35,638 nt of DNA from the IMG/VR virus record IMGVR_UViG_3300047310_000968, positions 1 through 35,638 of that record. One strand, given 5' to 3'. The notes beneath the pieces were generated by a model. It searched no databases and had not been told where the DNA came from. It saw only the letters and a program-made list of their open reading frames with translations. Both the position numbers and the translations under genes were made by a program. Below are positions 7,391 to 29,721 of the stretch, piece by piece. The stretch is from a virus. Each line of letters opens with the position of its first letter. Position 1 is the stretch's first letter.

Positions 7391-7546
7391 GTGATGCGCG
7401 CGCTTGCGGAGGCGTTTGGTGTTCTCGTTGCAATAGCGGCGCTTGGATTTTTCGCTCCTCCCTTGCTTGGGTTTGTGGTCTGGGCATGGAGCAAGTGGAT
7501 GCGGCTTTGGGAGAGGTTATACGTGCGAGGCGATAAGGCGGAATGA
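7391..7546 (+). CDS. Small membrane protein
   Basis: A 51-residue product from GTG 7391 (or 50 from ATG 7394). It has one long hydrophobic segment, AFGVLVAIAALGFFAPPLLG followed by FVVWAW, with a basic C-terminal tail (KWMRLWERLYVRGDK), so the tail likely stays in the cytoplasm. It sits one base after the SPFH lipoprotein and overlaps the ParB-like gene by four bases. Confidence 0.5.
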   Translation: MMRALAEAFGVLVAIAALGFFAPPLLGFVVWAWSKWMRLWERLYVRGDKAE

Positions 7547-8427
7547 ATCATACATCCGAAACGTCCGCCATTGAAACGATCACGCCGGAACTGGCCGACC
7601 GTATCCTTGAAAAGAACACGAACCGCCGCATGAGCGAGGCGCGCGTCCTTGAATATGGCAGTGCGATGGAACGCGGCGAATGGCGCGTTTCCAACGATGC
7701 GATCGTTATTGATAAGGACGGATTCCTTATCAATGGGCAACACCGCGTTCGTGCCGTATCGGTTTCCGGCGTAGCGATTCAGGCGCTCGTCGTACGGAAT
7801 GCGGATAAAGCATCTCAGGTCGTCATGGATCTCGGACGCAAGCGGACGTATGCGGATCATCGGCAGGTTGCGACGGGAACGCGCGTAGGTTTAGAGTTTT
7901 CATCGGTCATGCGCGTGCTGCTTACGCTGAAGTATCCTTGGCGTGAAGGGCAACGTCTTACCATCGGCGAGATCGCGAATGCGAACTATAAAAAGCCGCC
8001 GTCGTTCCAACAAATCGACGCAGAGGCTGAAGCGTTTCCTGACCTAGACGACGCTATCTCATTCGGTCGGAAGCTTTCGCATAGCACCAAGGATTATGCG
8101 CGTGTTCTGAATTTAACATTGACGGCGAGCGTCGTCGGCGTACTGTTGACGCGTAGGGCTGCTCACGGAACGCAGATCAATGCTTCGGAGTTTGAGATCG
8201 GGCTTCATTCGGGGGTAGGGCTTTACGAGGGCGACCCACGTCTCCGCCTCCGCTCGTTGAGCAAGGATCGACGCAGCCATTTCCATGTCGGCAACGTCCG
8301 CGAAGCTGCGATGTACGTTAAAGCGTTCAACGCCTGGGCGCAAAAGAAGAAAATGGGAAGCTCGTATGCGCGAGATGAGGAGCAATTTCCGATGCCGCTT
8401 GGCAAGGACCCGTTTCGCCCGTCATGA
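7543..8427 (+). CDS. ParB/sulfiredoxin-fold phage protein
   Basis: A 294-residue product. Residues 10-85 contain a ParB-like core: ELADRILEKNTNRRMSEARV, DAIVIDKDGFLINGQHRVRA. The NGQHR box (residues 64-68) is the nucleotide-binding loop of the ParB/Srx superfamily. The rest is helical. Phage proteins of this type are usually annotated as ParB-like nucleases or DNA-binding factors; it may bind CTP or nick DNA, which cannot be decided here. No ParA partner is nearby, so a partition role is doubtful. Confidence 0.65.
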   Translation: MNHTSETSAIETITPELADRILEKNTNRRMSEARVLEYGSAMERGEWRVSNDAIVIDKDGFLINGQHRVRAVSVSGVAIQALVVRNADKASQVVMDLGRKRTYADHRQVATGTRVGLEFSSVMRVLLTLKYPWREGQRLTIGEIANANYKKPPSFQQIDAEAEAFPDLDDAISFGRKLSHSTKDYARVLNLTLTASVVGVLLTRRAAHGTQINASEFEIGLHSGVGLYEGDPRLRLRSLSKDRRSHFHVGNVREAAMYVKAFNAWAQKKKMGSSYARDEEQFPMPLGKDPFRPS

Positions 8428-15946: not shown

Positions 15947-16034
15947 GATCAAGGAATTTTCACTTTGCATTCGAGGCTCTTTCACAGCTTCGGGTGCTGG
16001 AGTCGAGCGATGTCAGTCGTTCGGCTCTCTTTTG

Positions 16035-16069
16035 TGTCCCTATGATATCATAGGGACAGGTGAAGTCAA
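16035..16069 (-). promoter_or_regulatory. Minus-strand promoter overlapping a 24-bp palindromic operator
   Basis: Bases 16035-16058 are a perfect 24-bp palindrome, half-site TGTCCCTATGAT. Reading the minus strand, TTGACT (16069-16064) is a good -35 box and TATCAT (16047-16042), inside the palindrome, a good -10 box, 16 bases apart. A repressor on the palindrome would block RNA polymerase. Because the palindrome contains a -10-like sequence on both strands, a weak plus-strand promoter toward the terminase genes is possible, but no good plus -35 was seen. Confidence 0.65.
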
Positions 16070-16126
16070 TAGGGCTCCGAGAGATTTTTTTGAGGGCCGC
16101 CGGGGGCTGGGTAGCGAGATTATGTG

Positions 16127-16792: not shown

Positions 16793-18316
16793 ATGGCAAC
16801 GGTTATCGTCGAAACGGATGTAACCGAGTGGCAGGGAGAATTTCACGCATTTGTTGGGAAAACTGGCGTTGTTGTCGGCGGCATATCTTCCGGGAAGTCG
16901 TTTAGCGCCGCAGAGTGGTTGCTCGATCGTTCGCATGAGTGGCCTATCTCTCGCTCGGGAATCGTTTCCGGTACGTTTAAGCAGGCGAAAGAAGGCGCAT
17001 GCTACACCTTCCGTGAGAAACTAAAAGACTACGGTTATAAAGAAGACAAACATTGGAAACAAAATAAAACCGATCTGAGCATAACAATGCTTGGAAGCCC
17101 GTTAAAGGGGCATCAATTTACCGTTTGGTATGTTGCGAACAATGCGTATAAGGCACTCAAATCGGTTGAGTTGGATTCCATTTGGGCGGATGAACTTCAG
17201 GAGTGGCAGAACGGTGAAAAGGCGCTCACGTTTCTTTACGGACGCAATCGATCCTCGCCGTTAGCACTGGCCGCGTATGGATATCGCGGCGAAGATGGAT
17301 TGCCCGCTTGCCGTATGCACGCGCAGATGCGTTGCACGGCAAACCCTCCGTGGACGACAACGCATTGGCTGCACAAAAAATTTATCGCGAAAGACGGATA
17401 TGATCCGGCGCAAGACGATAGCGGTGCAACGGTTCGGGTTTGGCGCGTCTCAACGTTTGACAATTATCTCATGGCGAACCGTGAGGAGTTCATCGAGCAA
17501 CTTCGGCGCGATATGCCGGAGGATGTCTTCCGCATTGAGGTCCTTGGCGAATCCGGCGATGTCGGCGTTGGTCGTGTGTATACCTCGTTCTTCCGTACGC
17601 GCCACGTTGCTACCCCGGCGAACACCCGAACGTCGGCACAGATCCTTCCTTACATCGACGAGAACGGCTTGCCTGAGCTTGCCAAAAACAACCCGCTCGT
17701 TTGGGCTCACGATTTCGGCGTTGATCCGCGGGCAGCGGTCATCATGCAATACCACACGCTCCCGGAGCCGATCTTCGGATTCCAGCGTGAAGTAGTGTAT
17801 GTTCTCGATGAGATTCGCATCCGCGACGGCTCAACCGATAGAATGATCGACGCATTCAACGATTGGGTCCGTGAGCATTACGGCGAAGATGAGCTTCCCG
17901 TCGAGGTGGAGTTTTACGGCGATGCCTCGGGCGACAATCGGAACTCGGCGGTCGGATACTCGGATTGGGGCATGCTCAAAACCGACCCTCGCCTTGCCAA
18001 GTATCACAAAACCTGGCACGTTCCACTGAAAAACGGCGCGATCGTGGATCGGGTAAATGCTTTCAATCATAAGCTTTTGGATGCCGCAGGCAACGTCGGC
18101 ACGATCTTTCATCCGCGATGCGGTCACAGCATTGAGGACGTGCAACAAACGCACTGGTTGGAAGGGACGAGGCAGCTCGATCACGGTACGCGGAGTAAGG
18201 AAATTTTCCGCACTCACATGAGCGACGGCATAGGCTATTTCGTCGTGCGCAAGTGGCCGGTGGTCTTCCGTAAGCCACCCGAAATGTCGTTCGCCATTGC
18301 GAAAAATCGGAGATAG
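16793..18316 (+). CDS. Terminase large subunit
   Basis: A 507-residue product of normal length. Walker A GGISSGKS is at residues 29-36 and Walker B SIWADE at 129-134 with catalytic Glu134. The RNase-H-like nuclease half has acidic residues D307 (WAHDFGVD), D377 (FYGDASG) and D478 (HMSDGIGYF), the expected three metal ligands. It pumps DNA into the prohead through the portal and cuts the concatemer. All key residues are present, so it should be active. Confidence 0.9.
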   Translation: MATVIVETDVTEWQGEFHAFVGKTGVVVGGISSGKSFSAAEWLLDRSHEWPISRSGIVSGTFKQAKEGACYTFREKLKDYGYKEDKHWKQNKTDLSITMLGSPLKGHQFTVWYVANNAYKALKSVELDSIWADELQEWQNGEKALTFLYGRNRSSPLALAAYGYRGEDGLPACRMHAQMRCTANPPWTTTHWLHKKFIAKDGYDPAQDDSGATVRVWRVSTFDNYLMANREEFIEQLRRDMPEDVFRIEVLGESGDVGVGRVYTSFFRTRHVATPANTRTSAQILPYIDENGLPELAKNNPLVWAHDFGVDPRAAVIMQYHTLPEPIFGFQREVVYVLDEIRIRDGSTDRMIDAFNDWVREHYGEDELPVEVEFYGDASGDNRNSAVGYSDWGMLKTDPRLAKYHKTWHVPLKNGAIVDRVNAFNHKLLDAAGNVGTIFHPRCGHSIEDVQQTHWLEGTRQLDHGTRSKEIFRTHMSDGIGYFVVRKWPVVFRKPPEMSFAIAKNRR

Positions 18317-18318
18317 AA

Positions 18319-18699
18319 GTGATAGAAAAGCGCTTGAAATACTCCCTCGATGAGATCGACTTCATGCGGTGGGCGACCGCTGTTGACGAGGTGCTATCCC
18401 ATAGGCTCGGTTGTCTTTACGGGGTTCACGTCAACGTAGATGCCATTGCTGGCATCGCAAAGCTTGATGCGAAGGCTTGCGGTGATTGCCTACATCATCT
18501 CATTGCGACGGAAGCAAGCGAGAAGCGCAACGAGGAGAAACTCCGCACGTACATGCTCAACGGGACGATCCCGGAAGAGCTTGCGAAGCGTATCCTGAGT
18601 GCGGTCAAGGATGGTGGATACGCGCTTTGGTGGCCGCGTGAATTGGCCGCATGGTATGAGTTGTTCTGCGGACCGACGCCGCCCATTTGCACCGGATAG
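18319..18699 (+). CDS. Hypothetical protein downstream of terminase
   Basis: A 126-residue helical product from GTG 18319, two bases after the large terminase. CGDCLHHL around residue 55 could bind metal, and AKRILSAVKDGGYALWWPRE is an amphipathic helix. No family recognised. Its stop lies within a small inverted repeat (ACCGG 18691-18695 and CCGGT 18710-18714), just upstream of the structured RNA. Confidence 0.5.
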   Translation: MIEKRLKYSLDEIDFMRWATAVDEVLSHRLGCLYGVHVNVDAIAGIAKLDAKACGDCLHHLIATEASEKRNEEKLRTYMLNGTIPEELAKRILSAVKDGGYALWWPRELAAWYELFCGPTPPICTG

Positions 18700-18722
18700 G
18701 CTGGTAGAGCCGGTCCCGTCAT

Positions 18723-18962
18723 GCAAGCACGTAGGCATGCTTTCTCGCCTCTTTGCACCGTGTAGGAGGTCTTCGCCGTATACCGTCGCGCGAAGCGCTA
18801 GCGGGCACGGCAAGGGCGCGTAGCGGCGGAACGTAGTGGAGCGTACCCTTGCCGTGTCTGCTACCCTCCGGGGACGGTATACGAGCGCAAGACCGCACGG
18901 TGCATCGAGATTGCGGAGGCCGGAGCGCGTTCGTGAAGCGTCTCTCGCTTCATCGTGCTTGC
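18723..18962 (+). ncRNA. Candidate structured non-coding RNA with a four-way junction
   Basis: The segment folds into nested perfect helices: 18723-18731/18954-18962 (9 bp), 18747-18751/18916-18920 (5 bp), 18754-18762/18896-18904 (9 bp), 18768-18773/18889-18894 (6 bp) and 18777-18787/18873-18883 (11 bp). The last helix opens into a junction with no unpaired base: hairpin 18788-18798 (GCGC, loop GAA), an 18-bp arm 18799-18816/18846-18863 and hairpin 18864-18872 (CCC, loop TCC). A side hairpin, 18934-18940/18946-18952, abuts the closing helix. The arm has two G.U pairs on the plus strand, which would be A.C mismatches on the minus strand, so the plus strand is the likely functional one. No known RNA family is recognised. 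Confidence 0.65.
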
Positions 18963-19120
18963 GGGTCAACCTGGGGAACGCGCGATCTTCCGATTTTCGC
19001 GTCATTTTCTCCCTACACGATACACGATAGAGATGAGCACGAAATGTTACGCCTGGAAGTACTCAGCGTACGTGTAGGCGTACTCCTTTTGTCTCAAGTT
19101 GAATCGCAAGGGGGCGCGTA
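18963..19120 (+). other. Non-coding leader between the structured RNA and the RepL-like gene
   Basis: This 158-base stretch holds two further stem-loops: ACGCG (18978-18982) with CGCGT (18998-19002), then TACGCC (19048-19053) with GGCGTA (19077-19082) followed by CTCCTTTT, a weak terminator-like end. A 25-residue frame (19044-19121) overlaps the next GTG by one base but has no good ribosome site. The AAGGGGG before 19121 serves as Shine-Dalgarno for the RepL-like gene. Confidence 0.4.
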
Positions 19121-19603
19121 GTGGCGTCCGTCAGTCGGAACCTCGGCACGGTTGATTTAGAGACCGGGGAGCTTGTCGACGGCGTCTTCGCGTTCTCGCC
19201 CGTTAAGCCAAAGAAGCCGCATACCAAGGCCCTGGAAGAGCCTCACCTTGTCATGTTTCAAGCGGGCCTGCTCGATGTTGCTCTTCAGAAAAATTTCAAG
19301 TGGCAAAATCTTCGCGTTTTGCTTTACCTGGTCGGCGTGATCGGATTTGAAAACGAATGGCGTCAACTGAATCAGCGTGAGGTGGGCGACAAGCTCGCCA
19401 TGCGGCGCAATCATGTCAACGCCTCGATTCAAAAGCTCGTGAAGGCGGGCATCGTCGTGCGCGGCACTCGCCTTGGAAGCGGCCATGTATACAGGATGAA
19501 TCCGTACTTTGGATATAAGGGCAAGCTCATCGCAATTGACGATGCTCGTAAGGCGCATGACGAGAAATTCTTGCGGTTGCAAGTGGAAAACGCTTCCTGC
19601 TAA
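19121..19603 (+). CDS. RepL-like winged-helix protein
   Basis: A 160-residue product from GTG 19121 with AAGGGGG ten bases upstream. Residues 42-140 match the layout of RepL-type plasmid replication proteins: HLVMFQAGLLDVALQKNFKW, LRVLLYLVGVIG, then a winged helix (LNQREVGDKLAMRRNHVNAS, IQKLVKAGIVVRGTRLG) and the end motif VYRMNPYFGYKGK. RepL proteins start replication of small plasmids; phage relatives may act as initiators or regulators. It sits oddly between terminase and portal genes and next to the structured segment, which could be its binding site, an origin or its leader RNA. Confidence 0.6.
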   Translation: MASVSRNLGTVDLETGELVDGVFAFSPVKPKKPHTKALEEPHLVMFQAGLLDVALQKNFKWQNLRVLLYLVGVIGFENEWRQLNQREVGDKLAMRRNHVNASIQKLVKAGIVVRGTRLGSGHVYRMNPYFGYKGKLIAIDDARKAHDEKFLRLQVENASC

Positions 19604-28579: not shown

Positions 28580-29356
28580 ATGAGTGCTTTCGATGCGATG
28601 CACGAGGAGCTTCAACTCATGGGCGGCGGTTTTGCCGAGGATTGGGGACAACCGTACGACGTTCGCAGGCTCAATGAAAATACGAACACCTCTATTTCGA
28701 ATAATGATCCAATAGACGTTACCGGCAACGGCTGCGGCTTTCGCGCGTGGGTTGAAAAGGCGTCGCGGAAAATGCTCGAAAACTCCGCTTTTGATATCCT
28801 TGCTTTCGAGGCGACGTGCAATAATCTTCAACTAAAAATAGGCGATACGTTCACGCAAACGGGAAAATATAACGACGGCTCCATCTTCACGTTGGCCCAG
28901 ATGCGCCCTATGCACGAAACGATCTTTGTGAGAACGGAAGCGGGTTGTGCCGTCTCGCGCATCATGCCGACGGCGGGCGCGGCGGATCAGCAGCCCATGT
29001 CCGGCATCGTGGAAACGGAAGGATACGGCGGCGTTGACAAGGGCACCGAGCATTTTCTAAAGCTCCAAAACGGTAATTATTTTTTCTCCGACGACGGCAC
29101 GATCCCCAATGCTTCGGTACTTGCGGGTCTGCAACCGATCTCGCGCGTCCGCGACGGCGTAAGCGCTCTTCCCGGCACGGGACTTTATCGCGAAGATTAC
29201 ATCGTTTGGCTTCCGCTCATGCCGGGAGAAATGCTGCATGAGCTTGATCGCTTGCGCTTCCCCAACATGGATGCGTATCAAGTTGCGCGGTCTTTTTCCA
29301 GCAATGCGGTTGGTATGTCCGGTTACATCTGCACCATTGAGAGGGTGAATGTTTGA
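28580..29356 (+). CDS. Probable neck or tail-joining structural protein
   Basis: A 258-residue product (MSAFDAMHEELQLMGGGFAE onward) with mixed alpha/beta content. The position between the connector and further neck genes suggests a virion structural role such as a neck protein or tail terminator. No family recognised. Its stop overlaps the start of the receiver gene by one base. Confidence 0.5.
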   Translation: MSAFDAMHEELQLMGGGFAEDWGQPYDVRRLNENTNTSISNNDPIDVTGNGCGFRAWVEKASRKMLENSAFDILAFEATCNNLQLKIGDTFTQTGKYNDGSIFTLAQMRPMHETIFVRTEAGCAVSRIMPTAGAADQQPMSGIVETEGYGGVDKGTEHFLKLQNGNYFFSDDGTIPNASVLAGLQPISRVRDGVSALPGTGLYREDYIVWLPLMPGEMLHELDRLRFPNMDAYQVARSFSSNAVGMSGYICTIERVNV

Positions 29357-29721
29357 TGCGTATTGTTTGCGCGGATGACTCAGCCCCTACTCTCGCTTAC
29401 ATCGTGGGGACGGTGACGAGAGCGGGTCACAAGGTCGTAGGGCAGGCCAGCAACGGCGTTGAGGCCGTGGAGCTTTGCAGTAGGCACAAGCCCGACATCG
29501 TGATTCTGGACAACACGATGACCGGTGGGAACGGCTCGGTCGCCGCAAAGATCATCTACGAGAAGAAGCTCGCGCGCGGCGTCATCATCGTCACGCTCGA
29601 CGCGCAAAAAGAGGCGTTTCGCTGCCTGCTCGATCAGGGAGCGATTCTGCTCGGGAAGCCCTGTTCACCCAAGCAGATCATGCGCGCGGTGGAAGCCCTC
29701 GTAACTTCGCTTTCCCTTTGA
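29356..29721 (+). CDS. Stand-alone CheY-like response-regulator receiver domain
   Basis: A 121-residue single-domain receiver. All five classic residues are present: D7 and D8 (CADD), phosphoacceptor D52 (IVILDNTM), T80 (IIVTLD) and K101 (LGKPCS). The usual DxxMP loop reads DNTMTGG. The alternation of strands and helices covers the full CheY fold, and there is no output domain. It would be phosphorylated by a host histidine kinase and act by protein contact. It overlaps a structural gene on the left by one base and the next gene by four, so it is made with virion proteins. Confidence 0.85.
   Translation: MRIVCADDSAPTLAYIVGTVTRAGHKVVGQASNGVEAVELCSRHKPDIVILDNTMTGGNGSVAAKIIYEKKLARGVIIVTLDAQKEAFRCLLDQGAILLGKPCSPKQIMRAVEALVTSLSL

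Follow-up and report, generated by a model that had tools for sequence, protein, structure and literature searches.

Does the non-coding stretch behind a small gene of an uncultivated myophage encode a structured RNA, as a preliminary description had proposed for about 240 of its bases, and what might such an RNA do? The window, i.e., the whole 35.6-kb stretch of DNA analyzed here, is an IMG/VR virus record carrying terminase large subunit, portal, protease, and major capsid genes, together with a tail-sheath-like gene that weakly matches Komagataeibacter phages. The element lies in 421 bases of non-coding space. Directly upstream is orf126 (18319 to 18699, plus strand), encoding a small protein with no Pfam or PHROG match and an uninformative structure prediction (pLDDT 41), which is preceded in the same operon direction by the terminase large subunit gene (16793 to 18316, plus strand). 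The gene for a RepL-like winged-helix replication protein (19121 to 19603, plus strand) starts 222 bases past the element core. This protein, found here in a myophage, is 33 to 37% related to a replication gene carried by enterobacterial plasmids down to 1.3 kb in size.

Thermodynamic folding of 18690 to 19010, with shuffled sequences for comparison, gave a structure far more stable than chance (z = −6.6). Within the window, 18750 to 18910 folded most stably (−103.8 kcal/mol; z = −9.3; 0 of 200 shuffles as good). Since a sliding z-score with 12 shuffles was too noisy for ranking, stretches were ranked by energy, and 18750 to 18910 was the lowest of 2366 161-nt stretches in the window (best unrelated stretch, −80.3). 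The predicted fold reproduced the gapless four-way junction of the preliminary description (18777 to 18883, plus strand). Here, an 11-bp closing helix (18777-18787/18873-18883) opens into the hairpin GCGC-GAA-GCGC (18788 to 18798; 4-bp stem, 18788-18791/18795-18798), a long 18-bp arm (18799 to 18863; stem, 18799-18816/18846-18863), and the hairpin CCC-UCC-GGG (18864 to 18872; 3-bp stem, 18864-18866/18870-18872). Below the closing helix lie the 6-bp helix GGUCUU/AAGACC (18768-18773/18889-18894), a middle 9-bp helix (18754-18762/18896-18904), a 5-bp helix (18747-18751/18916-18920), and an outermost 9-bp helix (18723-18731/18954-18962), with a side hairpin, GAAGCG-UCUCU-CGCUUC, at 18935 to 18951. 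Every helix that had been named was found in the sequence, as were the G·U pairs of the arm at 18803/18859 and 18805/18857.

Conservation in a relative phage

Scanning IMG/VR with the RepL-like protein returned two contigs, L003 and L004, that share the same DNA. Outside the window, the element has one known homolog, in the 128.9-kb phage IMGVR_UViG_3300047317_001031 (here, the relative), plus an identical fragment; the independent sequences of the element thus number two (window and relative). The two phages are partly collinear: the protein encoded at 7543 to 8424 is 68% identical, tail genes and orf126 are also common to both, and the gene order orf126, element, RepL-like gene is identical, with one element copy in each phage. 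The orf126 homolog (50% amino acid identity) occupies the same place, and in both phages the element follows orf126 with no gene intervening. The RepL-like homolog (74% amino acid identity; L003:4932-5399) lies ∼1.7 kb downstream of the element; because further open reading frames (ORFs) intervene before repL in the relative, the tighter link is that between orf126 and the element. Paired repeats are found directly before repL in the window (19047 to 19085) and in a matching stretch of L003, where GTTACCTGTAGGGGTAAC occurs twice.

Positions 18753 to 18934 are 85% identical to a stretch upstream of repL in the relative, compared to ∼70% nucleotide identity for repL and orf126. Since the element is better conserved than the flanking genes and this conservation includes the loops, its sequence is constrained as well as its shape; at the junction, the two sequences are almost identical. 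A minus-strand frame of 171 amino acids (18490 to 19005) is open in the window and stopped in the homolog, and 1- and 2-base indels or stops interrupt every reading frame across the element between the two sequences. These comparisons agree with the earlier statement that the stretch holds no plausible long gene; the uninterrupted conserved frame that had been named as contrary to an RNA was sought across the element in the two phages and is absent.

Pairing was retained in the homolog. Across the inner five helices (6, 11, 4, 18, and 3 bp), 41 of 42 pairs were kept, and 98.9% of the cells were paired when 47 core pairs were scored on the two-sequence alignment. The second pattern named as contrary, bases kept without their pairing, is therefore not what this one homolog displays. 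Three core pairs carried double compensatory changes: AU to UA at 18780/18880 in the closing helix and, in the long arm, CG to GC at 18806/18856 and AU to UG at 18807/18855. Two others changed on one side to G·U, including UA to UG in the helix GGUCUU/AAGACC, and one was broken (18811/18851, in the arm, the apical part of which was less conserved between the two phages). When pairing partners were slid by 1 to 3 columns as a control, pairing fell to 37 to 48% and all double changes were lost. With two sequences, a control based on letter shuffling was of low power (the observed value was reached in 69 of 500 shuffles). We therefore simulated chance change by distributing 8 substitutions over the inner five helices (42 pairs); at least three compensatory pairs arose by chance with a probability of 2.5 × 10−5 to 1.2 × 10−4. 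Conserved pairing with compensatory change, the general criterion for a structured phage RNA, was thus observed across two sequences.

Pair retention also redrew the limits of the element. The relative kept 6 of 9 pairs of the middle 9-bp helix, 4 of 5 of the 5-bp helix, 4 of 9 of the outermost 9-bp helix, and 3 of the inner 6 of the side hairpin. Because so few of their pairs were kept, the outermost helix and the side hairpin are unsupported as conserved parts, and we narrowed the conserved core to ∼18759 to 18899 (plus strand), consisting of the inner five pairs of its outer helix, the bulge AGGA/GGGA, two nested helices, and the four-way junction. Folds, pair counts, and 85% nucleotide identity to L003:3075-3255 delimit this core. 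The nested architecture originally described therefore stands for the inner five helices and in part for the middle 9-bp helix, and both "large" and "about 240 bases" were too wide for a core of ∼140 bases.

The plus-strand reading of the preliminary description was likewise upheld as a prediction from two sequences. In at least one phage, six core pairs are G·U on the plus strand and none is A·C; the two G·U pairs of the arm noted above are constant. This bias is modest evidence, since its one-sided probability is 1 in 64 under no strand preference. G·T is also better than A·C in single-stranded DNA, and a strand-specific DNA role is compatible with the same bias. Folded alone, the relative's element forms the same junction on the plus strand (z = −4.8), and the junction is not formed in the fold predicted for its minus strand. 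Taken together, the compensatory changes, the G·U bias, and the plus-only junction fold of the homolog support a plus-strand RNA. The element is probably a working RNA whose fold was retained in a distant relative through matched changes on both helix sides.

Known families and four-armed Bradyrhizobium repeats

The element passes a covariation test rarely reached by RNA candidates from single sequences and matches no curated RNA family: none of 4227 Rfam 15 families matched at the gathering cutoff, and under lax thresholds the best matches were at chance level (18 bits). No match was obtained by blastn against phages (window and relative as queries) or plasmids (window as query). When IMG/VR was scanned for motifs of the element (two exact, one gapped), only the known relative was returned; scans with neighboring proteins returned the relative, the extra fragment, and one distant phage lacking the element; and scans with the terminase and the first orf126 query returned no match. 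Profiles of the RepL-like protein and orf126 found nothing in 385 alphaproteobacterial genomes. The element itself was found in none of 289 alphaproteobacterial genomes by DNA or 385 by RNA model, searches whose first-look filter was weak and also missed the Bradyrhizobium repeats described below.

Among known systems, HK022 put RNA (∼70 nt, two stem-loops downstream of early promoters; PMC9378689) is likewise phage encoded and structured, and the element would likewise act in the transcript; membership was rejected because the element is a four-way junction behind orf126 with no promoter-like site. Repetitive extragenic palindromes (REPs) are palindromic intergenic sequences of 20 to 40 bp with many copies, and their GTAG and CGTC families are known in alphaproteobacteria, including Bradyrhizobium (PMC3733652). 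The element resembles CGTC REPs in being palindromic and intergenic and in carrying the tetranucleotide CGTC before its first hairpin. Unlike these, it is single copy, ∼140 bases long, and a four-way junction, and its CGTC is followed by the 4-bp GC hairpin GCGC-GAA-GCGC rather than by an 8- to 9-bp stem beginning with A-T pairs (PMC3733652); it was not assigned to this family. A VIPR guide RNA was rejected for want of GGY/NN repeats, and a packaging site, the first guess, was rejected given that the relative's element lies ∼20 kb from its presumed terminase gene (by ORF reading only).

Scanning 84,980 species genomes for a motif gave four sites; one, in Bradyrhizobium sp. DOA9, lies inside a dispersed repeat of ∼165 bp, the nearest look-alike of the element to be found, which is present in dozens of copies (74 matches, a number that includes palindromic places counted on both strands). 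Repeat loci (L012, L014, L017, L020-L025, L047, and L048) came from DOA9 and one further 8.0-Mb alphaproteobacterial genome. Among 385 alphaproteobacterial genomes, a 19-base motif occurred at 13 sites in two genomes; all inspected sites lay in copies of this repeat, although two of them (L019 and L046) are incomplete or rearranged. The repeat had no Rfam match, and the literature searched gave no name for it.

The consensus fold of seven repeat copies was a four-way junction with its arms in the order of the phage element, and its third hairpin varied through compensatory change. Both have a closing helix, the GCGC-GAA-GCGC hairpin, a long arm starting from AGCGGG, and a third hairpin, and they hold in common the junction sequence TCGCGCGAAGCGC.AGCGGG, formed in the phage by the first hairpin and the next bases. 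The relative's element and copy L014 agree at 24 of 25 nt across the first hairpin and the base of the arm. In contrast, the closing helix, arm tip, and third hairpin of the repeat differ, it is present in dozens of copies per genome rather than one per phage, and it is not tied to phage genes; its copies carry both G·U and A·C pairs, whereas the phage element carries G·U only. Similarity did not extend along the whole element: the best local alignments of phage and repeat spanned 21 to 25 nt, with no shared sequence elsewhere. A covariance model of the phage element (R1) scored the repeats at 27 to 37 bits, values that are inflated because the loci were themselves chosen by motif. The common layout and junction sequence mean that ancestry from a DNA repeat has to be considered, and given the 24 of 25 nt shared with the relative, a common origin is possible; between common origin and convergence, these sequence comparisons lead us to lean slightly toward the former. 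The earlier statement that no phage RNA family of this form was known agrees with the lack of an Rfam or phage match, but the form is not unique, since the Bradyrhizobium repeats share the layout.

Candidate roles

Our tentative preference, held with limited confidence, is that a small lineage of uncultivated myophages has a single-copy plus-strand RNA element, located where the terminase/orf126 message ends and having a role at that 3′ end. No sigma-70-like promoter was detected before the element in either phage (by a scan that does not cover phage promoters), so read-through fits better than a gene of its own. Convergent minus-strand ORFs (L003:3262-3919) lie directly past the element in the relative, an arrangement consistent with a plus-strand message having its 3′ end there. 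The lack of a terminator directly behind the element counts against this reading. Read-through transcription from the terminase large subunit gene and orf126 would carry the element, and the stiff, nearly fully paired cross may be bound by protein and resist nucleases. Judging from its position, the cross could protect or trim the 3′ end of the orf126 message, separating it from the downstream repL message. The element may descend from a REP-like four-armed palindromic repeat present in an alphaproteobacterial host.

A compact stable fold, high sequence constraint, and plus-strand bias would also suit a free-standing small RNA gene, i.e., a stable phage RNA of ∼140 to 240 nt, transcribed from its own promoter and acting in trans, e.g., through binding of a host protein by the junction. 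The 421 non-coding bases and the gene-free interval behind orf126 in both phages favor such a gene as well. We nevertheless consider it somewhat unlikely, given that both phages lack a promoter-like site in front of the element and an intrinsic terminator directly behind it, and that the element directly follows a gene on the same strand.

The preferred 3′-end element might belong to a new class of phage RNA, derived from a dispersed host repeat, in which a rigid gapless four-way junction is now single copy, functional, conserved at the junction, and recognized by a specific protein; this broader proposal appears unlikely at present. If the Bradyrhizobium link is real, it becomes testable whether phages turn dispersed palindromic repeats into single-copy functional RNAs. 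Distinctly unlikely is that the element is simply a palindromic DNA repeat of the REP or MITE kind, inserted into a phage ancestor and, if active, acting as cruciform DNA. This would explain the dozens of DOA9 copies whose four-arm layout, first hairpin, and arm base match those of the element, as well as the confinement of the 19-base motif, among the 385 alphaproteobacterial genomes, to such copies, some incomplete or rearranged. However, the element is single copy within the same gene neighborhood in both phages, is under more constraint than the genes, has a plus-strand G·U bias absent from the repeats, and shares no sequence with them beyond 21 to 25 nt. Finally, a replication element, in which the plus strand folds as single-stranded DNA (e.g., a single-strand origin) for the downstream RepL-like initiator, would suit the strand-specific folding, the nearby repL, and the tiny plasmids run by RepL relatives, but is very improbable, since 1.7 kb and other ORFs separate the two in the relative, the paired repeats directly before repL look like RepL sites instead, and the RepL plasmids checked hold nothing resembling the element.

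Other features of the two phages

A second conserved structure was observed at 15967 to 16028 (plus strand), where two adjacent hairpins (12 bp with a 7-nt loop, followed by 11 to 13 bp) precede a gene at 16124 that itself lies just before the terminase large subunit gene. The 128.9-kb relative retains both hairpins (L031:6523-6628), and four one-sided changes between the two phages all leave G·U or G-C on the plus strand; a third palindrome (16040 to 16055) is not conserved there. The second hairpin, together with the CTTTTGTG that follows it, is terminator-like. In outline only, this pair of stem-loops recalls HK022 put RNA, and it is more put-like than the four-way junction element. A lone response-regulator receiver domain gene (29353 to 29721) lies among the tail genes and is kept in the relative. 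In the relative, ORF starts suggest inteins in a terminase-like gene (L032:15868-17787) and after a DnaB-like gene (L035:86-2263).
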